DNA from: a virus
IMG/VR virus record: IMGVR_UViG_3300021962_000603
Location: 1-25,001 of that record
DNA length: 25,001 bases
Direction: 5' to 3' (one strand)
In this document: positions 3,800-23,647 of the stretch, piece after piece
Position numbering within the stretch: the first letter of the stretch is position 1
How the letters are laid out: every line of letters starts with the position of its first letter
Made by a program: the position numbers and the translations under genes
The notes under the pieces: generated by a model
The model's database searches: none
Seen by the model: the letters and a program-made list of their open reading frames with translations, nothing else
Told to the model about the DNA's origin: nothing

Positions 3800-4783
3800 T
3801 TATTTAGATTTAGCAAGTGTTTTAGGAATTATTTTTGCCAATGCTTGCCCGCCTTTTAAGCTGCCAATTGTTCCGGGTTTGACCAATTCCAACCAAGTGA
3901 CGTTTTGTGTATTGTTCCAAGAAAATTGTGTGCGATAGCCAATTTTTCGAGCTGCTGCCCTAACACGCTTACCGGGTGTGTAAAAGCAGTAGTGCCTCTC
4001 AACTAATTCTACAGCATGATAGCGATCGCAATCGTTAAAAGTCATTGCCAGTGTGCCTCCAGGTCTTAATTTTTTATAAATGTTTTCAAGATAGCTTTCC
4101 AATACTTCCATAGACACAAATTCAAAAAAGTTAAATGCAAGACACAAGCCCATTTGGTTGTTGGGCAACTCCGATAATAAATCAGTGTCTGTTGGTAATT
4201 GGGGATAGATGCGTAATCGATTTTTGTAATCGTCGTTAAATTTAGACAGAGCCGGCTCTAATAGTTCATTACTATAATCAACCAAATAAAGAGGATCAAG
4301 TGCTACTAGGTCATCTATAAAAGATTCTGTTGCTGGCCTAATAATCAAGCCAGCACACTTCCAGTCAGCTAGCGATTTTAAGCGATTTTGCAACATTGTC
4401 TTGGCTTCGTCGGAAATTGTTAAGCGTCGATCTAGAATCTGCTGATCAACTTTTTTATCTGTTTCTTCACCAAGAGTCTTATAATTGTTTGCAATTACAG
4501 CATACCGTGCTGAACTGCTTTCATAGTAGTCTTTTTCCGCAAACTCAATCATAAGATCAAGCTCGCGTATTAGCTCATTTAGTGTAGATCCAAACTGATT
4601 AAATGTATCAATAAGATTGTATAAATCTTCTTCAATAGTTTCAGTAAATGTGCGCGGCTGTATGACACTGGTTTTAACGGTATGAACAACATCTGACAAT
4701 TTGTGCCGTGCCTGATACTGTATGTCCTCAATGTCATACTTTTGTAGTTGATTGCGATATGCAATAAGTTCACTTAATTTCAT
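3800..4783 (-). CDS. Class I SAM methyltransferase-like protein with helical N-terminus
   Basis: This 327-residue protein has two parts. Residues 1-135 are highly charged and helical, probably coiled coil. Residues about 140-300 resemble the second half of a Rossmann-fold methyltransferase: LYLVDYSNELLEPA (165-178, acidic ribose-binding strand), LCLAFNFFEFV (213-223, motif IV region) and KKLRPGGTLAMTFND (237-251, post-motif III loop and strand). The glycine-rich SAM loop is not obvious; the expected place reads CAGLIIRPATE. The gene therefore may be diverged or non-catalytic. It starts 3 nt after the DNA polymerase stop and precedes the clamp gene, so it is part of the replication operon. The basic Lys-rich tail may bind nucleic acid. 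Substrate unknown; DNA, RNA or protein are all possible. Confidence 0.65.
   Translation of the reverse strand: MKLSELIAYRNQLQKYDIEDIQYQARHKLSDVVHTVKTSVIQPRTFTETIEEDLYNLIDTFNQFGSTLNELIRELDLMIEFAEKDYYESSSARYAVIANNYKTLGEETDKKVDQQILDRRLTISDEAKTMLQNRLKSLADWKCAGLIIRPATESFIDDLVALDPLYLVDYSNELLEPALSKFNDDYKNRLRIYPQLPTDTDLLSELPNNQMGLCLAFNFFEFVSMEVLESYLENIYKKLRPGGTLAMTFNDCDRYHAVELVERHYCFYTPGKRVRAAARKIGYRTQFSWNNTQNVTWLELVKPGTIGSLKGGQALAKIIPKTLAKSK
3801..3808 (-). promoter_or_regulatory. Candidate T4-type late promoter upstream of clamp gene
   Basis: The minus strand reads TCTAAATA here, one mismatch from the T4 late promoter core TATAAATA. It lies at the very end of the methyltransferase-like gene, about 34 nt upstream of the clamp ATG, leaving room for a leader and an AGGAGAA ribosome-binding site. 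Several other intergenic gaps in the window carry the same TAAATA core. Short AT-rich matches can occur by chance. Confidence 0.4.
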
Positions 4784-9035: not shown

Positions 9036-10613
9036 TTACTTGCCGGCTACAGCCAGCGCAGCACCTTTGTTAAAACTGGGACTCCAGGGACTATTAGCCT
9101 GCTGTAATCCCTTACTCTTGCTCCATTCATAGCCAGCACGATGTCCCGAACAGTCTTTAGTGCACTCACTGCCCAAAAACTTTAGTTCATTCAGTTCATC
9201 TTTAAATCCGCTCAAGTTGCGCTCAACCTGACTGACCCAAGCACTAACATCACTGGAACCAATTTCTTCCACATCGCCTACAAATTCAGCAACACTATCA
9301 ATGGCGTCACCTACAGCAAAAGGTCCATATTTTTGTAATAAGTCTGCTCGCTGCCTTAAGATGCGGTTTGTAATAGCATTGGCCACAGGATTGTCTTCTT
9401 GGCCTTCGTCCACACCTTGCTGTTCATGCATATCGCGAAGCTCTTTATACTTGTCTAGTAAGTCTTTGTGTTTGCCAATCTCAGTTGATTTCAATCCATA
9501 GCGAGCAGTTTTAGCGTTGTCTAAATGATATTTGGCTCTCTTATGATCACCACGTTCATGGGCATCGATAGCCTTCTTCATAGTTGTGGCAAACGACGAT
9601 TCCGCTACACCTTGTAGTTCTTTTTGTGTGGCGCCTGCTTTACGAGCAGCTTCAGCATCTTTAGAATCTTTTGTCTTGCGATATTTTGCTAATAATTCTT
9701 TGCGGGTGCCACCTTGACTTGGGGGATTGTAATCTGTGGCACTTGCGGTTTCATCCACACCGTGTTCAGGCTTAACATCCACAACCTTAGCCATACTATG
9801 ATGCTTTAGGAAACGCTCACGAGCAGAACGAGGACCAGTCATACCCCGAACACGGAACTTTTTAACCTTACCGTCTACTTCAGCAGTGACAATGTAATCG
9901 CGAACCATTTGAGCAGCGGCTTGTAGACCACTTGGATCTAATGCTGCTTCATCCATATCGTCACGGAACTCACCGCTGTCGTGCATACGTGCTTCTTCTT
10001 CGTCACTATCAGCATAGTCGTTAAAACTTACATCGCTAGAGTGAAAACTATGCTTACCGTGATTGTATAAGTTTACAATAACAAAACGCTTGTCTTGACC
10101 AAAATCATCAATAACGCCAGTTGCACCATTGAACTCAACGTTGCCAGTGATAACAACATCATCACCAATGTTTAAGCCTTCTGCGGATTCCGCCACACCT
10201 TCTTTTACGCTGTCAATGATTGCTTTAATTTGCTTCAAGTGATTTAATTTACTTGCTAATTGTTTAGCATTAGCATATTGGCTGCCAGATGTTGTGCGCT
10301 CATAGTCGCCATATCTTTTTAATTCATTTGCAACTTGTGTAATTTCAGCATCAATGTTAGGATGCTTTGCTGCCCAACCTTGTGCAATGCGCTGGTCTCT
10401 TTCGCTACTTTGCGCATCACCTTCACTCATACCCGAGCGTAGTTTCTTGCTAAACTCCTGAGCGCTTTTCTTTTCAGCTTTTTGGAAACGGCGTTCAATG
10501 TCTTTTAACCCGCGTCTGTGTTCGCGATCAATTTTCTTATCTTGTGCCGCAAGTTTATCTATAACATCCTGAAAAGGATTGGCATTTTCATTGAAAAGGT
10601 CGTTTAAGTTCAT
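9036..10613 (-). CDS. Modular 525-aa protein with GVAE/GVDE sites, putative head-packaged polyprotein
   Basis: This charged multidomain protein contains four short tetrapeptides: GVAE (ending at residue 142), GVDE (288), GVAE (338) and GVDE (403). They split it into segments: a basic helical N-terminal region (15-135), a KOW/SH3-like beta segment LNIGDDVVITGN and following (147-196), an acidic stretch, a basic segment with GGTRKELLAKYRKTK (301-315), a helical segment (340-400) and a C-terminal module with CTKDCSGHRAGYEWSK. The N-terminus, MNLNDLFNE, resembles capsid-targeting peptides of T4 internal head proteins. V-x-E is close to the (I/L)-x-E preference of T4 prohead protease gp21, so cutting into modules is inferred. 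The start overlaps the previous stop (TAATG), with GAGGAAG upstream. No enzyme active site was recognised. Confidence 0.8.
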   Translation of the reverse strand: MNLNDLFNENANPFQDVIDKLAAQDKKIDREHRRGLKDIERRFQKAEKKSAQEFSKKLRSGMSEGDAQSSERDQRIAQGWAAKHPNIDAEITQVANELKRYGDYERTTSGSQYANAKQLASKLNHLKQIKAIIDSVKEGVAESAEGLNIGDDVVITGNVEFNGATGVIDDFGQDKRFVIVNLYNHGKHSFHSSDVSFNDYADSDEEEARMHDSGEFRDDMDEAALDPSGLQAAAQMVRDYIVTAEVDGKVKKFRVRGMTGPRSARERFLKHHSMAKVVDVKPEHGVDETASATDYNPPSQGGTRKELLAKYRKTKDSKDAEAARKAGATQKELQGVAESSFATTMKKAIDAHERGDHKRAKYHLDNAKTARYGLKSTEIGKHKDLLDKYKELRDMHEQQGVDEGQEDNPVANAITNRILRQRADLLQKYGPFAVGDAIDSVAEFVGDVEEIGSSDVSAWVSQVERNLSGFKDELNELKFLGSECTKDCSGHRAGYEWSKSKGLQQANSPWSPSFNKGAALAVAGK

Positions 10614-11316: not shown

Positions 11317-11757
11317 TTATTCCCTAACGTCCTTTAGAAAGCTACGCAATTGCCAAGCATACTTGTTTTGCTGACTCAGTCGTTCAGCAATAAAGTTGGC
11401 AATGTCTTGTTTGTTTTCAGCTTCAGCATCAGCAAAACAACTGTTCAATAGGTCTACCATTGTTTGGCTGTCTGCCAGTAGTTCTTGGATCATTAGTTTG
11501 GCCCGGGGTATTTTTGTTTGGCCGGGTATTTGTGTCAATTCCTGAAAGCGTTCTAAGCTGCCAGGAGCGTATTCGTCTAAACTTCGTATATACTCAGCCA
11601 GTGGATCAATGGCTTCGTACGCATCTTGGTATATCTCTCCAAAAAAATTGTGTAACTGTGCAAAGTCGCTGCCTTCAACGTTCCAGTGAAAGTAGTGAAC
11701 TTTTAGATAGTAGGAAAACTGGCTGGCCAGTAGTGTTTTTAGTTGATCAGTTAGCAC
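11317..11757 (-). CDS. dps: Dps-family ferritin-like DNA-protection protein
   Basis: This 146-residue protein matches Dps, the dodecameric mini-ferritin that oxidises and stores iron and shields DNA from peroxide. The di-iron ligands appear intact and correctly spaced: His24 in FHWNVEG, His36 in QLHNFF, Asp51 and Glu55 in AIDPLAEY, the same spacing as His51, His63, Asp78 and Glu82 of E. coli Dps. Four-helix-bundle heptads continue to the C-terminus; the long Lys-rich N-terminal DNA-binding tail of E. coli Dps is absent. The start is GTG, overlapping the preceding 64-residue gene by 11 nt. It sits among putative head-packaged proteins but has no capsid-targeting-like N-terminus. It could protect virion DNA or lower peroxide stress in the host. 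Confidence 0.9.
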   Translation of the reverse strand: MLTDQLKTLLASQFSYYLKVHYFHWNVEGSDFAQLHNFFGEIYQDAYEAIDPLAEYIRSLDEYAPGSLERFQELTQIPGQTKIPRAKLMIQELLADSQTMVDLLNSCFADAEAENKQDIANFIAERLSQQNKYAWQLRSFLKDVRE

Positions 11758-11941
11758 GACGTTTCTTTCCTTTTTTCATATAACTTGGAGTATTTGGAGT
11801 TGCATCCGTAGTGTATTTACCAGAAAAGAAGCTGCCGCCGTTTCTACTAACCATGCCCAGCGGAGCAGCTACTGGTGCTATACCACCTGCGCTAGTGGCG
11901 CCAGCTGACGCATTTTCGCGAATAAATTCGTGTGCTTTCAT
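11747..11941 (-). CDS. Small basic protein with capsid-targeting-like N-terminus
   Basis: This 64-residue protein starts MKAHEFIRE, very close to the T4 internal protein III capsid-targeting peptide MKTYQEFIAE, which is cut after Glu by the prohead protease. The body is rich in Ala, Gly and Ser and ends in a strongly basic tail, MKKGKKRRAN, suited to binding packaged DNA. These are the features of a T4-type internal head protein: short, targeted, cleaved and basic. Its ATG overlaps the stop of the 93-residue gene (ATGA), and the first 14 nt around the start, TACACAATGAAAGC, are repeated at the start of the 62-residue gene nearby. Function after injection unknown. Confidence 0.7.
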   Translation of the reverse strand: MKAHEFIRENASAGATSAGGIAPVAAPLGMVSRNGGSFFSGKYTTDATPNTPSYMKKGKKRRAN

Positions 11942-15295: not shown

Positions 15296-15429
15296 CGTTT
15301 GTTGCGTGTTTTGCCTATAAAATTCTGATCATTACCATTACTGTTATTACTGCCACTGCCGCTATTAGTATTAGATCCGACACCGTTTCCTTGATCTTGT
15401 TCTTGTCCATCATCGCTTGCTGCGTGTTT
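15292..15429. repeat. 20-bp near-perfect direct repeat at two gene ends
   Basis: TCATCGTTTGTTGCGTGTTT at 15292-15311 and TCATCGCTTGCTGCGTGTTT at 15410-15429 differ at two positions. Each encodes, on the minus strand, a TRxKR C-terminus followed by an ATGA stop/start overlap. The repeat suggests a local duplication of a gene end, with the 98 nt between copies perhaps a later insertion or a duplicated gene fragment. Confidence 0.8.
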
Positions 15430-15462
15430 CGCCCATGGACATTCCCCATGTGCCATCTTCAT
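15292..15462 (-). CDS. Possible small Gly/Asn/Ser-rich protein (56 aa), overlapping frame
   Basis: A frame from ATG 15460-15462 to TGA 15292-15294 encodes MKMAHGECPWAKHAASDDGQ, then a Gly/Asn/Ser low-complexity run, then NFIGKTRNKR. It overlaps the end of the 100-residue gene by about 50 nt in another frame, and its stop overlaps the start of the membrane-protein gene as ATGA. Its C-terminus, GKTRNKR, copies GETRSKR at the end of the 100-residue protein, which supports it. It competes with the 32-residue membrane peptide frame over the same DNA. Confidence 0.42.
   Translation of the reverse strand: MKMAHGECPWAKHAASDDGQEQDQGNGVGSNTNSGSGSNNSNGNDQNFIGKTRNKR
15315..15413 (-). CDS. Possible 32-aa single-helix membrane peptide
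   Basis: A short frame starts ATGATG, overlapping the stop of the 100-residue gene, and encodes MMDKNKIKETVSD followed by a strongly hydrophobic stretch, LILIAAVAVITVMVMIRIL. A charged N-terminus and one transmembrane helix fit a tiny phage membrane protein, such as a holin or spanin-type accessory. The hydrophobicity may, however, be a by-product of reading a Ser/Asn/Gly repeat out of frame. No clear ribosome-binding site. Confidence 0.33.
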   Translation of the reverse strand: MMDKNKIKETVSDLILIAAVAVITVMVMIRIL

Positions 15463-15712
15463 CTACGCCGCCTGCTCGTGCGTCCTGCTGCGACATTTTA
15501 GCTGTTTCTGCATTCCGTGCAGCGTCGGCAGCTTGTGATTGCCAGCTACTTTCATCATCAACGTTCCCAGTTTCTTCTTCCTCAATGGGCACACAGTTGT
15601 TGACTCGCACGCCACCTTTCATTTTGGTTTTGGGATTGCCAATCTTTTTACCTGACCAGCATTTGGGATCTAGCCGTGTTTTTTCTTCAATTATGATGTC
15701 TTGGATTTTCAT
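15410..15712 (-). CDS. Small protein with capsid-targeting-like N-terminus and GVDE site (100 aa)
   Basis: This 100-residue protein begins MKIQDIIIEE, where IIE is a good prohead-protease-type site and the whole N-terminus resembles a T4 capsid-targeting peptide. It continues with a basic, cysteine-bearing segment, LDPKCWSGKKIGNPKTKMKG, then an acidic stretch, an alanine/glutamine-rich helix and GVDE (residues 84-87) followed by a short tail ending TRSKR. An AAAGGT ribosome-binding site precedes the ATG by four bases, and the gene lies just downstream of the 664-residue GNAT/GH19 protein, which carries the same kind of sites. It is inferred to be an internal head protein cut into two or three peptides. 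No enzymatic motif. Confidence 0.72.
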   Translation of the reverse strand: MKIQDIIIEEKTRLDPKCWSGKKIGNPKTKMKGGVRVNNCVPIEEEETGNVDDESSWQSQAADAARNAETAKMSQQDARAGGVDEDGTWGMSMGETRSKR

Positions 15713-15724
15713 ATGTACCTTTGT

Positions 15725-17719
15725 TTATGTTCGGCTGGTATAGTCCTTGAAGTTTTCCGCACGATCTTGTAACCCCCGCATACCCGGATTGATCATTCGG
15801 GTTACTGCGGCTACGTCATTGTAGTTATCTACATTGGGCTGCACACGATGTTTCCAGTACCACACAGCCACTTGTGCTGCTACTGCTGGATCTTCAACTA
15901 ATTCTGGTCGTTGTTCAAGTGGTAATCCCAGTGCTTGTCCAGCTACTTTGTAGTTGTGTCGCCCGGTCAATTGTATAAACCCACGACCTTTGTAGCGTTC
16001 ACCATCACCAGCAAACTTATTGCCTAGTGCCCGTGCTTTCTTTGGTGCGTGTTTAGGATCGTATTTCCGAAAGTCTAACTTACCGCCAATTTCTTTTAGT
16101 CGTTTAAAGTCCAGTGTTTCGTGGGCGCATTGTGCCATAAACGCTGCTAGTTCAGTGCCGGCTAGACCAGCACGTTGAGCAACAGATTTTAACACATTTT
16201 CAAGTGGACTGTTTGTTATATTTTTTATTTGCGCCGGTGCTTTGGGTTGTGCCTGCTTGGCTGTTTGTGCTTTTTGCACGCCTTGGGCAATGGAACTTTT
16301 TGCAACTGGTGCTTGGATTTGTTTTGCTGGTTGCTGTGGTGCAGGAGCAGTTGCTACTGGAGCGGTGCTGCTTGAACTCCATTTATTAAACGCATCTTTT
16401 GCAGCCATACCACCAGCGCCACCTGCACCAATAGCGCCAGCAATAGCCAAGTTTCCTAGAGTGTCCTTCCAACCTTCTCCGAGTGGCAATGATTGTTTTA
16501 AGAACTGCTCACCTTCACTGGTAACATACCAATATCCGTCATCGTTGATAGCATAACCATTGCTATCTAAACTGTCTAACACGTTGTCATATTCTGCGGT
16601 GCGTGACTCATCTTCGATAAAATCCATACCTAATTTTGCTGCTGTATAGATAGCGTGTAATACTAATATCTTGCCGTAACCCTTACCTTTGTATTCGGGA
16701 TTGACTTCAGCAATGCTGCGTCCACTGTTTGCGTCATATTGATAACCGCCTGCAGGTTTGCCGTTAACTGTCATTTCAGTAGCAAACTTATTACGACCTT
16801 TACGAACTGAAATAGCAACTTGCTCTACTGACTCCGCCACACCTTGCTTCTTTGCCCAGTCGTCTGGAGAAACTTTATTTTTTTCAATAAATCGATCGTG
16901 TAGTTTGCTCGGTGTTATTTTATGATTTTTGGCCACAGTTTGCATCATGTGATCTATGGCGTCATAACTGTGGGGATCTTTAAGATCTTTTTCTAAATCT
17001 TCAACGCTGTCTTCGTTGGCTTTCTTTTTCCCACCTTTCATATTGGCGCACCAGTGATACATTTTGCCTTTTTCGCCTGAGTACTTTTTGGCCTTAGCCC
17101 GCAAGTCAGTTACTGAACCAGCGCAACTTGCGCCCGCTGCTTTTACACGACCTGGGCGACTTTTACCTTTTACTTTACCGTCAGCAAAGTTTTCCGCCAC
17201 ACCTTGTTCCCAGATATTTTTACCCGGTTTGTGTTTGTCCCAGAATGCAGCACCGGCATCTGTTTGCTGTCCACTGCGGCGTATTCTATATCCCTTACTC
17301 TTAACATAATCATACATTGTGGCGGCAATGCCTTGACCACGGAAGCGTTCATCAACTTCTAAGTCTTGTGGATTGAGAACCATGCCTTGACTGTCATAAT
17401 CTATTGTAAATAATACATGTCCTAATTCTCTACTACCTGCTGATGCCTTGACAAATACTTCTCCATCATCATCATCTTTTTGAAGTAAAATGTTTATACC
17501 GCCGTAGTTTTCTCTGTTCTCTGCCACACCAGCGGTGCTGCCCAGTCCTGGTAGTTTTACACCAATAACATCTTGCACCAAGTCCCAACCCTGTTTGTAT
17601 TTTTTCGCAGCGATTAAACGTTTGAGTTCGGCTTTTTGCTCAGCCGTGGCCAATGTGAAAAACTTAAAAGTTTCCATTGCGCCTATGTTACGCTTGTAAC
17701 TCAACTCATTTAATCGCAT
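15725..17719 (-). CDS. Polyprotein: two GNAT acetyltransferase modules plus C-terminal GH19 lysozyme/chitinase domain
   Basis: This 664-residue protein is split by three GVAE tetrapeptides, ending at residues 67, 176 and 296. Module 1 (75-165) is GNAT-like, with VDERFRGQGIAATMYDYV (122-139) carrying the R-x-x-G-x-G/A acetyl-CoA loop. A basic, Cys-containing segment (180-230) and a helical segment (236-290) follow. Module 2 (300-400) is a second GNAT with NPEYKGKGYGKILVLHAI. After a Gly/Ala-rich hydrophobic stretch (421-440) and a Pro/Ala/Gln linker (452-500) comes a GH19 domain (505-660) with AQCAHETLDF (Glu534) and GDGERYKGRGFIQLTGRHNY (Glu574), which cuts peptidoglycan or chitin. The N-terminus, MRLNEL, resembles other genes here. 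A virion-borne enzyme set, processed in the head, is inferred; a simple endolysin would not need the GNAT parts. Confidence 0.88.
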   Translation of the reverse strand: MRLNELSYKRNIGAMETFKFFTLATAEQKAELKRLIAAKKYKQGWDLVQDVIGVKLPGLGSTAGVAENRENYGGINILLQKDDDDGEVFVKASAGSRELGHVLFTIDYDSQGMVLNPQDLEVDERFRGQGIAATMYDYVKSKGYRIRRSGQQTDAGAAFWDKHKPGKNIWEQGVAENFADGKVKGKSRPGRVKAAGASCAGSVTDLRAKAKKYSGEKGKMYHWCANMKGGKKKANEDSVEDLEKDLKDPHSYDAIDHMMQTVAKNHKITPSKLHDRFIEKNKVSPDDWAKKQGVAESVEQVAISVRKGRNKFATEMTVNGKPAGGYQYDANSGRSIAEVNPEYKGKGYGKILVLHAIYTAAKLGMDFIEDESRTAEYDNVLDSLDSNGYAINDDGYWYVTSEGEQFLKQSLPLGEGWKDTLGNLAIAGAIGAGGAGGMAAKDAFNKWSSSSTAPVATAPAPQQPAKQIQAPVAKSSIAQGVQKAQTAKQAQPKAPAQIKNITNSPLENVLKSVAQRAGLAGTELAAFMAQCAHETLDFKRLKEIGGKLDFRKYDPKHAPKKARALGNKFAGDGERYKGRGFIQLTGRHNYKVAGQALGLPLEQRPELVEDPAVAAQVAVWYWKHRVQPNVDNYNDVAAVTRMINPGMRGLQDRAENFKDYTSRT

Positions 17720-19324: not shown

Positions 19325-22300
19325 TTATCTCATCTCGGGTACTACTTCAATCTCGGCACTTTCTGGTGGAGGATTGTATCGTCCATTTCGAATGGCTGCC
19401 AACAACCATTCTTGGGCTTTGCGGTTAGCATCCCCTTGATTGTTGCCAATGCCACTGAGTCTGTGTATTTCTTGGCCGTTGACTTTAATTATCCATTGTC
19501 CAGTAAACTCACCGCCTGGTTGCTGTGTGCTTGCTGCGGGTTGTGGCTCTTGTTGCTGTGCTTGAGCAGCACGTTGGCGCTGTAGGTCTACAGTAGAACC
19601 AGGTAATGGACCACGGCGTAAACCAATTGAACCACGGGTCATGCCACTATCTCTAACCATTTCGTCTCTATACCTATTACCAATTTCTATAGCCATTTCG
19701 TCGTCGGCAGCATAGTATGTGCGATAAACTTGGCCAGTTTCGCGACTAAACATTTCATACTTTACGCTTTGATTAGAACCAGTGGGTGTTATTGACATTG
19801 GACGATCACGCCTAAATTCTGAATCGCTGCCACCGGCTGGTTGCCCCAATGTCTGATTATCATCACGTTGAGCTAACCAAACTTGATCTGGATGTTCTTG
19901 TCTCCATTGTCTTAACACAATATTGGCATCATCGATGTTAGCCGCCATGAATCGGTAATATACACTGGTTCTATCACTTTCAGGTGTAATAACATAGTTA
20001 CCGTCAGGGTTACTTGGACGACCATTTACTGTTGGTCCCGACCGTTGCCCAACTGCTTGTGGTTCACCTACTGTTGCTCGAACTGGTTCTTTATTGTACG
20101 GTGCAACGGGTTTGGCTTCTAAGTTTGCAGCACTTGCCCAATCTGGATAATTCTCTGGTTGTGTTGCTATTCTAATCGCTTCTTCTTTGGATGACGCAAC
20201 AACTTTAATGCTGGCCATATAACCTGGGCGGCTAACTTCCCACCAAAACTTTTCATCACCAGTATCGCCCTTTTTAACCTTACGCTCTAGTTGTGCTTGT
20301 TTGATAAAACTCTTTAAATCTTCTTTAGGCATTTCACCTGCTACATACTTGGCAAAGTATTCCAATGTGTCTTTGCCCGAGCCATTTGGTGACAGCACTT
20401 TGTATAACTTCTTCAAGTATTCTTGACGATACTTTTTAGGATCCATAGCAGCATCAGTAGCCACAACAAAGCGCAGTAGTGTATTTTCTAACTTGTCTAC
20501 ATTTGCCGCATACTCACCCAACCAATCGCCCCCGGGACTGCGGAATTCAATATAGTTGCCCTTTGTATTGATGCTTGTGTATTTCTGTGTTTCGCCAGAG
20601 TGAATGATTTTAGTTGCCATCGCTTCTAAATTATCTTTCATTTTCTTTAGCAAAGCAGCCGCATCTTCGGGACGCTGATTTATACGATCGCGCACAATCC
20701 TCATAGCACTTTTAGTATATGTATTGGCTGAACGACCAAATTGATCCAGTACATATTCATCGCCTAACAGCAATGCCAGTTTAACATAGTCAAGTTTATC
20801 AGTTGACAAGTCGGGTATGCTAACATTCATATGTAAGCCGGTGGAATCGTTTGTGTACGCACCAACTCTGCCTGCCCACTTTACAACTTTTTCCAAGTCA
20901 TCGAGCATTTCATCTAGTGGTAGCGGAGGACTAATAAACTCAAGACCAGATTCGCCACTATTGTCGGGATCTAAACTGCTGTCAGGTTCAATAACATAGT
21001 CTGTGGCGTTCCGCTTGGCACCGTGATAACTTGATGAGTACTGAACTTTGCGACCAATAGCATCCTCAAAATCCGACGCAATCGATCCTATATCTGTTTC
21101 GGGTTCAGGGTTGTAATAATGTGGCCAAGCGATATCGTGGCTTCCGGAAATATCACTCATGTTGGGATAAACAGCGTCCAGGAATTCTCGCTCTTCAGTA
21201 TTGTTAAACGCTTCTTCCCTGTAATCATCATATGCTTCTTGATGAAAACTGTTGGTATTTTCTATTGAATACTCAACAAAGTTCTTCCAGTCTTCTTTAG
21301 TCAGTTCATGATCTTCGGGTAATTCTAATACTTCTCTAACATCATCGTCGCTGGCATTTTCTTTAACCCAATCCCAGACACGTTCTTCCTCATCCTCTTC
21401 CCAGTTTTCATCTATACGCTCACCTAACCATTCAAAAAATTCATCTTGTAAATTTTCTATTAGGCGATCAACTTCACGGCGGGAGTTGTAGTCATTATCA
21501 TGAAAGAATTCTCTAATGTCAGCCCAACTACGGCTGCGTTGATCTGAATCATAATCAGGTTCTATGTCGCCGTCACCGTAACTATCTGTATCAACACCCG
21601 GAACGATCATTTCAAATTCCATGCCAGCACGAGCGTCAATGTTTCGTGCTAAATCGCGCAAAGAACTAATGCTCATGTTGATTTCAAACAGTGCTTCTTC
21701 GGTTAATGATTCATTTACATTATAAGTAGGATCAGTTTTGACTTTCTTCATGCCCGCCGGTTGTGCAGGATCACGAGGATCAATGTCTGTTATATCCAGA
21801 CCTGTAGCTTCTAAATCTTTAATAAACTTGTGTTCTGTATCTTCGTCGCCGAAACTGATGATAGAACTGGGAGGTCCCTTGCCAAAATCGTGTTTACCAA
21901 GGCCCTTTAAGTTGCTGATGTGTTGTCCCAATTTGTACCAGTCGTATACATCGCTTACATCTACACGCAAAGTACCCTTTGGCATAGTGGGTTTGGATTC
22001 TGGCCCAGGTGGATGATCAGGACTGTAATCTTCAGCAGTCCGGCCAGGTAGTCGCCCTGTTTCTTTAAACTCCCGCAAAGCATTGGCCAGCCCTTTCATC
22101 AACAGTTCAGGATGTCCTTGGCTGTCAGTGTTTAAATTTAATTTGTTGGCTTCTTTACCAGTGGCACCGGGTTTAACATCTTTGGTCAGGGCCATAGACC
22201 AGCGCGGATCACGGGCCTGCTTTTTTGTTGGAATGTACCCCGAGCTTTCGTTGGCGTTGGCAGCACGGCGCAGAATGTTTTTAACACCTTGGCGAGCTCC

Positions 22301-23647
22301 ATATTTTAAATCGTCTTTAGAAATTCGACTGAGATGTACAGCAGATTTAACAGCTTCGGCACCTTTATTAAGTGGTTCAGTAGTGGCGCAACCCGGAGTG
22401 CCTGCTACGCAAGCAGCAGCAAGAGCAGCACCGGCTATACGGTCTCGAACACCTTCTTCGACACTATCAGCTTCAAAAAATTCCGGATGCTTTTGAGCAT
22501 AGTCGCGCATGAGTATGCCAGCACGAGCATTGGCTTCATTTTCCCATTTGCTGCCAGTAGCGCCAGCGTCATCAGGAACATCATCCACTTCATGTTGCCG
22601 TGCGTGGGTCAGTTCGTGTGCCACTGTGCGCAATATGTCCATAACATGACGATCGGCCAGGCTTACTTCAAGCAAGTTTTCTTCAGCGTTGTATCGTCCA
22701 AATGTTTTATTGCGTGCCGACCACTGCGGATCACGTTTAAACTTGACTTGTGGATTGTGTTTAATACCCAACTGTTCAACACAGTAGTTGATAAACGACG
22801 ATACTATTTCACTGGTTGATGGCCGCGGCTTTTCATTTAAGAATGTTTGTGTTGATGGACTAACGCCGTCCCATGTTGAACCAGCATCTTCGTTCTTAAA
22901 TCCATACTTGACATAAGGTTTGACCTGTTCACGCTCTTTAAGACTAAGCTCACGATCACGAGCAGCATTGCGAGCATCAACCAATCGCTTGATAGCACCT
23001 TGATTGCGAAGCATTTTGAATGACAAATTTTCGGGACCAAACTCGCCATGCTTGTCCAATCCAGTTTGGCGCATGTTTTTGATACGCTGCATCAGCGCAG
23101 CCATCTTTTCATAATCACCAGACTCCACAGCACTATCAATGCGTGCCGACAAGTCTTCATATTTGCTACGAGTAGAAATGTCATCTACACCCACATCACG
23201 ACGCTTGGGTACTTCGATCCATTCGTCATTTAATACGCTATAAATTCCTTGGCTAATGTGCTTTTTGTTAGCGTTTTGTACATACAGTTCCACTTGCGAG
23301 CCACCAATGGTGATGTCATGCTGCTCGTTATACTGAAACTTTTTAGCATCAAACAACTCGCGATAAACTTCGCTGGTATCAGCTTGGGGTAAATCCACTA
23401 CTAAATGTAAGTCAATGTCCGAGTGCGGTGTGTAAGTGTAAGCAGCATTAGATCCGCTGACGGTGATGTCTTTAAGTTCATAACCCGAAACGCCTAGAAA
23501 TTCGCGAAAGTCGTCGGCTATTTCCAACAGGTGCTTTCGTACATCGGGCTTGAGCTGCTCGTCAGGCGTCCATAAACGAGGATTTAATCGTTGGTTAAAT
23601 TTAACAGCGTCAGCAAGATTGTAGGAATCTAATTCAAGAATATTCAT
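19325..23647 (-). CDS. 1440-aa multidomain protein: nucleotidyltransferase, metalloprotease, amidoligase-like, C-terminal repeats
   Basis: Domains in order: residues 50-125 carry SGSNAAYTYTPHSDIDLHLV (64-83), the GSx(n)DxD signature of Pol beta-type nucleotidyltransferases, with Glu120 as possible third acid. Residues 270-385 hold a zinc metalloprotease motif, VAHELTHARQHE (342-353), with a downstream WENEANARAG glutamate. A hydrophobic Ala-rich stretch (403-424) follows VEE. Residues 675-1065 look like an amidoligase (COOH-NH2 ligase): AGMEFEMIV, GESGLEFISPPLP (898-910), NDSTGLHMNVSI (933-944) and NYIEFRSPGG (1031-1040). Residues 1130-1440 contain about four divergent 60-70-residue modules. 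LTE and LFE near 648-655 and VEE near 398 are possible processing sites. The gene has no Shine-Dalgarno; a TAAATA motif lies just upstream. Likely a virion or injected effector polyprotein. Confidence 0.82.
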   Translation of the reverse strand: MNILELDSYNLADAVKFNQRLNPRLWTPDEQLKPDVRKHLLEIADDFREFLGVSGYELKDITVSGSNAAYTYTPHSDIDLHLVVDLPQADTSEVYRELFDAKKFQYNEQHDITIGGSQVELYVQNANKKHISQGIYSVLNDEWIEVPKRRDVGVDDISTRSKYEDLSARIDSAVESGDYEKMAALMQRIKNMRQTGLDKHGEFGPENLSFKMLRNQGAIKRLVDARNAARDRELSLKEREQVKPYVKYGFKNEDAGSTWDGVSPSTQTFLNEKPRPSTSEIVSSFINYCVEQLGIKHNPQVKFKRDPQWSARNKTFGRYNAEENLLEVSLADRHVMDILRTVAHELTHARQHEVDDVPDDAGATGSKWENEANARAGILMRDYAQKHPEFFEADSVEEGVRDRIAGAALAAACVAGTPGCATTEPLNKGAEAVKSAVHLSRISKDDLKYGARQGVKNILRRAANANESSGYIPTKKQARDPRWSMALTKDVKPGATGKEANKLNLNTDSQGHPELLMKGLANALREFKETGRLPGRTAEDYSPDHPPGPESKPTMPKGTLRVDVSDVYDWYKLGQHISNLKGLGKHDFGKGPPSSIISFGDEDTEHKFIKDLEATGLDITDIDPRDPAQPAGMKKVKTDPTYNVNESLTEEALFEINMSISSLRDLARNIDARAGMEFEMIVPGVDTDSYGDGDIEPDYDSDQRSRSWADIREFFHDNDYNSRREVDRLIENLQDEFFEWLGERIDENWEEDEEERVWDWVKENASDDDVREVLELPEDHELTKEDWKNFVEYSIENTNSFHQEAYDDYREEAFNNTEEREFLDAVYPNMSDISGSHDIAWPHYYNPEPETDIGSIASDFEDAIGRKVQYSSSYHGAKRNATDYVIEPDSSLDPDNSGESGLEFISPPLPLDEMLDDLEKVVKWAGRVGAYTNDSTGLHMNVSIPDLSTDKLDYVKLALLLGDEYVLDQFGRSANTYTKSAMRIVRDRINQRPEDAAALLKKMKDNLEAMATKIIHSGETQKYTSINTKGNYIEFRSPGGDWLGEYAANVDKLENTLLRFVVATDAAMDPKKYRQEYLKKLYKVLSPNGSGKDTLEYFAKYVAGEMPKEDLKSFIKQAQLERKVKKGDTGDEKFWWEVSRPGYMASIKVVASSKEEAIRIATQPENYPDWASAANLEAKPVAPYNKEPVRATVGEPQAVGQRSGPTVNGRPSNPDGNYVITPESDRTSVYYRFMAANIDDANIVLRQWRQEHPDQVWLAQRDDNQTLGQPAGGSDSEFRRDRPMSITPTGSNQSVKYEMFSRETGQVYRTYYAADDEMAIEIGNRYRDEMVRDSGMTRGSIGLRRGPLPGSTVDLQRQRAAQAQQQEPQPAASTQQPGGEFTGQWIIKVNGQEIHRLSGIGNNQGDANRKAQEWLLAAIRNGRYNPPPESAEIEVVPEMR

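Follow-up and report, generated by a model that had tools for sequence, protein, structure and literature searches.

A putative T4-like capsid-targeting tag and predicted prohead-protease junctions on candidate head cargo of jumbo phages

Introduction

The closest described counterpart of the system analyzed here is the capsid-targeting sequence (CTS) of phage T4, a short N-terminal peptide carried by unrelated internal proteins (IPI, IPII, IPIII and the propeptide of Alt; Mullaney and Black 1996, reviewed in PMC9026906). For IPIII, a peptide of its first ten residues is enough for encapsidation, with positions 4 and 7 serving targeting and positions 8 and 10 processing, and gp21 removes such short propeptides by cleaving after L/I-x-E; the propeptide lost by Alt is only 7 residues long (PMC9026906). 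The T4 capsid protein gp23 loses a 65-residue propeptide at FLTE/AEIGG (in sequences a slash marks an established or predicted cut; PMC5694885, PMC9026906). T4's three internal proteins are anti-restriction factors in the host (PMC12373910). The giant phages SPN3US and phiKZ likewise cut head propeptides with a prohead protease after x-x-E, but those propeptides are mostly long (often more than 100 residues), the motif is A/S-x-E and the phages belong to another lineage (PMC5694885, PMC10052503). Polyvalent proteins are a further multi-domain, injected type, with ART-PolyVal, ParB, amidoligase, GNAT and nucleotidyltransferase domains, and in the published model are released by embedded peptidases (Iyer et al. 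2017, PMC5512222). Neither polyvalent proteins nor, in T-even phages, CTS-bearing internal proteins are new. A literature search that was thin on subscription journals returned no account of the tag described below in jumbo phages, and no description of prohead-protease junctions in polyvalent cargo.

The window analyzed here, 25,001 bases, is an entire IMG/VR viral fragment. The nearest isolates by its family B DNA polymerase are Sinorhizobium phage Phosso, Agrobacterium phage Atu_ph07 and RaK2-like jumbo phages, and on this polymerase kinship we place the phage in the T4 superfamily. Relatives with 81–91% polymerase identity include contigs of ∼350 kb. Because the 25,001-base fragment contains no head genes, the facts on head assembly, including the protease, are drawn from these relatives.

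Results and Discussion

A 64-residue protein with a T4-like N-terminus

The 64-aa protein (11747..11941, minus strand) reads MKAHEFIRE/NASAGATSAGGIAPVAAPLGM...KKGKKRRAN and is presumed to be a small basic internal head protein. Its first nine residues (11915..11941, minus strand) form a capsid-targeting-like tag with a predicted cleavage after E9, and NASAGATSAGGIA comes directly after this final glutamate. The original prediction held that MKAHEFIRE resembles T4 MKTYQEFIAE in pattern. Both starts were confirmed, since ipII and ipIII of the T4 record each begin MKTYQEFIAE, and the T4 Alt start is MELITELFDE. The counterparts of F6, I7 and E9 in IPIII are F7, I8 and E10, so that the order of aromatic residue, isoleucine and x-E is shared, while the tag of the 64-aa protein has 9 residues versus 10 in T4.

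The protein belongs to a family of 23 members in which M1 and the tag-final glutamate are invariant. Tag length in the family is 8, 9 or 11 residues, and a hydrophobic-x-E, mostly [IL]xE, directly abuts [NSTD]A[STV].G.T..G.[IV]A. The protein matches PHROG 17311 (annotated "unknown function"), and a tblastn search with it and one relative against the phage collection gave no match. The gene shares 4 bases with the one before it, and a Dps/ferritin-like gene (window 11317-11757) overlaps the end of the 64-aa gene.

The tag is enriched at N-termini of unrelated proteins

To count the tag we used the pattern M[KR]xx[ED][FIL][ILVFMY]xE, which includes MKAHEFIRE. Among dereplicated proteins of related contigs it occurs at 66 of 2932 N-termini and at 3 of 11130 internal methionines (Fisher P 1.7e-41); shuffled N-termini gave a mean of 0.2 and a maximum of 2. 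Given the first seven residues, glutamate stands at position 9 in 66 of 108 N-termini compared with 12 of 106 internal positions. A smaller set analyzed earlier had two residues between K/R and E/D in 82 cases and three in 2. With longest-ATG gene calls and a loose pattern the enrichment within single genomes was weak, and it was the fixed-spacing pattern that settled the matter. Across IMG/VR, a DNA pattern for MRAxEFIxE turns up in at least 120 contigs, and a control with its codons scrambled in 2; of the 133 tag DNA matches listed, 131 start an ORF 40 aa or longer, with 78 distinct bodies. Thus, a short conserved N-terminal peptide on unrelated proteins is confirmed and extends beyond the window. 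That helix-starting N-termini merely look alike by chance, as MKLSELIA proves that they can, is next to negligible as an explanation given the N-terminal versus internal counts and the scrambled-pattern control. Chance is refuted for the tag group as a whole and may still account for MRLNEL and MNILEL individually.

The tag might also be a spreading DNA leader, that is, a translation-start cassette copied among genes that has no function as a peptide; single genomes with many copies and freely shuffling bodies are what such a leader would leave. Nevertheless, identity at the third codon positions of the tag is only 0.59, the upstream and flanking DNA is unrelated (identity 0.28), and the final glutamate stays invariant though the length changes. 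Because third codon positions vary and flanks are unrelated, selection acts on the tag peptide, and copying of a DNA leader was rejected as a very improbable origin.

The core of the tag has F/I/L at position 6, I/L/V/F at 7 and E at 9, and in the 64-aa family it ends in [IL]xE/. Unlike the ten-residue T4 CTS, the tag here is usually 9 residues long (8–11) with alanine favored at position 3, it occurs on dozens of multi-domain enzymes, its cut motif is repeated within the cargo, and P3 is often V or M.

Bodies behind the tag

As a whole the tagged bodies are non-homologous; when 58 and 47 members were aligned, essentially the tag columns alone were retained. Their families include GH19, GNAT, gamma-glutamylcyclotransferase (GGCT), RegB-like RNase and zeta-toxin kinase, as well as ART-PolyVal, ParB, amidoligase, LysM, lytic transglycosylase and Tat-signal proteins. 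The strict tag is found on only ∼1–2% of the genes per genome. An equal frequency on cytoplasmic enzymes, which would have spoken against targeting, was sought and not seen. Across six jumbo-phage contigs, homologues of annotated Atu_ph07 enzymes carry the strict tag in 0 of 104 cases and those of its structural proteins in 0 of 92, versus 21 of 2,161 other proteins. Taken by itself this count is too small for significance, although its direction is the one that targeting predicts. Among 63 Atu_ph07 enzymes there is a single loose look-alike, MAIKELWVE.

Two groups of tagged proteins are noted in their own right. In one, a Tat (twin-arginine) signal follows immediately after the tag glutamate (L154:8760-9158, L361:413-1297 and L322:2992-3612; e.g. 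MRASEFIAE/DLSRRGFLRGLGAAGATVATGGALA). Cutting in the head would uncover this export signal, suggesting that the host re-exports the injected cargo. The other is a family of ∼110–130 aa, MRAxEFIxE...xPYxxYRFGxAxA, present in nearly all large relatives (G001:247396-247782, G002:218097-218486, G005:320-703, G006:262210-262554 and G010:184335-184679).

The tag end matches the predicted capsid maturation site

The reading that we hold with high confidence is that the peptide is a T4-like CTS, cut off by a gp21-type (S77) protease, and that internal copies of the site split some cargo polyproteins. A tag of the form M[KR]xx[ED][FIL][ILV]xE would associate with the prohead core and draw its protein in, and cleavage behind the tag's final glutamate (hydrophobic-x-E/) would fall to the gp21-type (S77) prohead protease. 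The mature cargo would remain with the DNA in the head and then be injected into the next host cell. From the sequences we infer the targeting, the cleavage, the injection and the host role of each cargo.

The protease accompanies the tag. A T4-type S77 prohead protease together with gp23 is present in 9 of 10 large relatives, and the S77 protease occurs in 3 of 3 large contigs with the 64-aa family and in 8 of 8 contigs of at least 178 kb picked by the tag pattern alone; in two tag-picked fragments of ∼141 kb it was not found. Small prohead-core proteins adjoining the portal also start in a tag-like manner (MLLTEFWHKE, MKLLEFFYFND and MNIFELFDPE).

The capsid protein of the relatives, ...ENTRKYLKE/NASAGSTAAGNIATLNRVILP, aligns with T4 gp23 ...FLTE/AEIGG...NIA, so that YLKE/NASAGST... 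stands at the position of the T4 cut. The stretch that follows the tag glutamate in the 64-aa protein copies the major capsid protein at this expected maturation cleavage, YLKE/NASAGSTAAGNIA: residues 10-24, NASAGATSAGGIAPV (11870..11914, minus strand), reproduce the predicted mature N-terminus. When the 64-aa protein was compared with the whole proteome of one relative (G001), the top ungapped match was this capsid-protein stretch, with a score of 62. The same stretch scored 59 against the capsid protein of a second relative (G013), while 500 shuffles of the 64-aa sequence gave a mean of 28.7 and a maximum of 55. In a search of all ORFs for the capsid-like motif with the preceding residue left free, glutamate precedes it in 42 of 42 contexts and P3 is I/L/V in 40; for a looser motif, [LIVMF]xE precedes it in 46 of 55 contexts versus a 1.6% background. 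In contrast to T4 gp23, the site and the ∼13 next residues are here copied onto small tagged proteins and other cargo. With this copied N-terminus of the mature capsid protein, the 64-aa protein probably either lies against the inside of the shell or shares a longer protease-recognition sequence. What the capsid-like segment does is the point of which we are least sure; it may be prime-side protease recognition or shell binding.

These observations also weigh on the idea that the tag sends proteins elsewhere, to a membrane or a compartment of the phage, or acts as a signal for secretion or for a chaperone. The tag looks as though it begins an amphipathic helix, and Tat signals or hydrophobic segments follow it in some tagged proteins, both as such a signal might predict. 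We consider it improbable nonetheless, as the end of the tag is the site that precedes the mature capsid-protein N-terminus and is retained despite varying tag length, the same site precedes internal modules, where an N-terminal localization signal would be senseless, and tag-like starts are found on prohead-core proteins. Shared targeting into the prohead, as originally proposed, is therefore the best-supported reading, given the identity of the capsid site, the co-occurrence of the protease and the virion-rich region of Atu_ph07 described below. That proposal had overlooked the internal copies of the site.

Copies of the site at module borders

The 525-aa, 664-aa and 100-aa proteins of the window contain four, three and one copies of GV[AD]E, respectively, and the density of this motif is 10x higher in tagged than in untagged proteins. 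Mobile modules allow the residues before the site to be compared. The NFADGK module stands behind a tag in contig L097 (MRAKEFITE/NFADGK) and behind QGVAE/ in the window; elsewhere it is preceded by LTE/, IEE/, VDE/ or MAE/. Over 45 distinct contexts of the NFADG module, P1 is glutamate in 45 of 45 and P3 is L/I/V/M/F in 80%, while P2 and P4–P8 are unconserved. The KWS module is preceded by glutamate in 11 of 11 cases and lies behind a tag in 7 and internally in 5. Similarly, the KKRK module (KKRKRKKPRWA) has glutamate before it in 5 of 5 and behaves as the NFADG and KWS modules do. An automatic search for more mobile 8-mers returned mostly the NFADG module again and did not find a second strong class. 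The argument for internal sites draws on few module families. At many module junctions P3 is V or M, versus L/I in T4. Conservation of P1 and P3 alone resembles a protease site, and on this resemblance we equate the end of the tag with the internal site.

Since [LIVMF]xE/ recurs at module borders inside the cargo, we propose that the 525-aa protein, and probably the 664-aa protein, would come apart into single modules inside the head, with [LIVMF]xE/ sites such as QGVAE/ and YNVDE/ freeing the modules. Alternatively, only the N-terminal tag may be a true capsid-targeting propeptide, the GVAE-type internal sites being uncut linkers of shuffling modules. Shuffling borders often have low-complexity linkers, and [LIVMF]xE is so short and so frequent, at 1.6% of random positions, that a lone internal site is weak by itself. 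Yet conservation is confined to P1 (E, 45/45) and a hydrophobic P3, which is protease-like rather than what linker homology would leave, and identical modules stand behind tag ends. Uncut linkers thus appear unlikely, while carrying more weight than the other alternatives, and we favor cleavage in the head. No peptidase family was found in the 664-aa or 525-aa proteins. Polyvalent proteins share the ART-PolyVal, ParB, amidoligase, GNAT and nucleotidyltransferase domains with the cargo described here. In the model put forward for them they are released by peptidases of their own, while the junctions here fit the motif of a head protease acting in trans and are combined with a CTS-like tag.

Candidate cargo proteins in the window

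The original prediction grouped five proteins of the window under one N-terminal form. All five starts read as quoted, and the form is complete through E9 in the 64-, 100- and 525-aa proteins, whereas MRLNEL and MNILEL show only the start of the tag. The 100-aa protein (15410..15712, minus strand), MKIQDIIIE/EKTRLDPKCWSGKK..., consists of a CW/NCV module and has an internal GVDE/ at 15458..15469 (minus strand). Its homologue in contig G005 starts MKFNDFIVSE/EKVRLDPKCW, with the tag length altered and the site retained. The 525-aa multi-module protein (9036..10613, minus strand), MNLNDLFNE/NANPFQ..., has four internal sites, all on the minus strand: GVAE/ (10188..10199), GVDE/ (9750..9761), QGVAE/ (9600..9611) and QGVDE/ (9405..9416). 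At its C-terminus (window 9036-9200) is a 55-residue module, SECTKDCSGHRAGYEWSKSKG..., that also ends several otherwise unrelated proteins.

The 664-aa protein (15725..17719, minus strand) is a candidate cargo polyprotein whose start, MRLNE/LSYKRNIGAME, is a truncated tag at best; two relatives read VGE/ASY..NIGAME at this point. It combines two GNAT domains, a GH19 domain and two modules, and is laid out as a module (residues 5-58), GNAT (65-176), the NFADG module (177-233), a module (236-292), GNAT (297-414) and a hydrophobic segment plus GH19 (413-660). Blocks homologous to other proteins span residues 5-58, 65-176, 171/174-233, 236-292, 291-414 and 413-660, and from these limits GVAE at 64-67, 173-176 and 293-296 falls on borders. 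These are GVAE/ before the first GNAT (17519..17530), QGVAE/ before the NFADG module (17192..17203) and QGVAE/ before the second GNAT (16832..16843), all on the minus strand. E415 of LGE/GWK (16475..16477, minus strand) precedes the hydrophobic segment and GH19. In an AlphaFold2 model of residues 59-299 (mean pLDDT 65.5), the GVAE sites ending at 176 and 296 lie in stretches with pLDDT <50 and the 64-67 site directly follows one at residues 1-5 of the modeled fragment, a placing that is only mildly supportive. We also observed that [LV]xE/GWK followed by a hydrophobic helix recurs before GH19 in many GH19 cargo proteins, window 16475-16477 included; a cut there would uncover a membrane-inserting N-terminus.

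The 1440-aa protein (19325..23647, minus strand) unites a nucleotidyltransferase-like N-terminus with an amidoligase and starts MNILE/LDSYNL, a weak or truncated tag of uncertain assignment. Like polyvalent proteins, the 1440-aa and 664-aa proteins each join several biochemically unrelated domains in one chain. It has a HELTH-like motif, for which Pfam gave no confirmation. MRLNEL and MNILEL possibly represent a 5-residue tag form ending in LNE/ or ILE/. The methyltransferase-like protein MKLSELIA... (3800..4783, minus strand), which the original prediction had flagged as a warning, was judged not tagged and rejected as a look-alike: the homologues compared keep roughly MKLS[ED][LI][IV] and lack E9.

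Implications for head loading in jumbo phages

More broadly, we lean toward a general head-loading code in jumbo T4 relatives, made up of one short N-terminal address and a reusable hydrophobic-x-E cut site, often with a capsid-like P' segment. If this is true, any module could join a cargo polyprotein and be dismantled by the prohead protease in the capsid, and one virion could deliver many injected enzymes from few genes. The tag reading itself predicts that the prohead protease dismantles multi-domain cargo. The signature would single out the head cargo, probably injected, among hundreds of jumbo-phage proteins, and the tag would offer new addresses for loading proteins into large bacteriophage capsids.

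A tandem array in Atu_ph07

In Atu_ph07, the ten consecutive genes gp53-62 have starts of the form M[KR]W[ENDHQ][QD]L[TNI]E, a tandem tagged array at NC_042013 39484-49507 (L309). They fall inside CDS 31-76, a region with 46 products of which mass spectrometry found 29 in virions, a count for the region as a whole (PMC6102473). Within gp53 there is an internal ITE/TSSAGSTGAGNVAT, and the capsid protein of the same phage reads LME/NATAGATSSGNVA. For the YRGM proteins gp54-61, Pfam gave no confirmation of an ART domain. Most products of the array have this YRGM motif, which recalls Alt-type ADP-ribosyltransferases, and gp53 has a zeta-toxin-like kinase domain besides.
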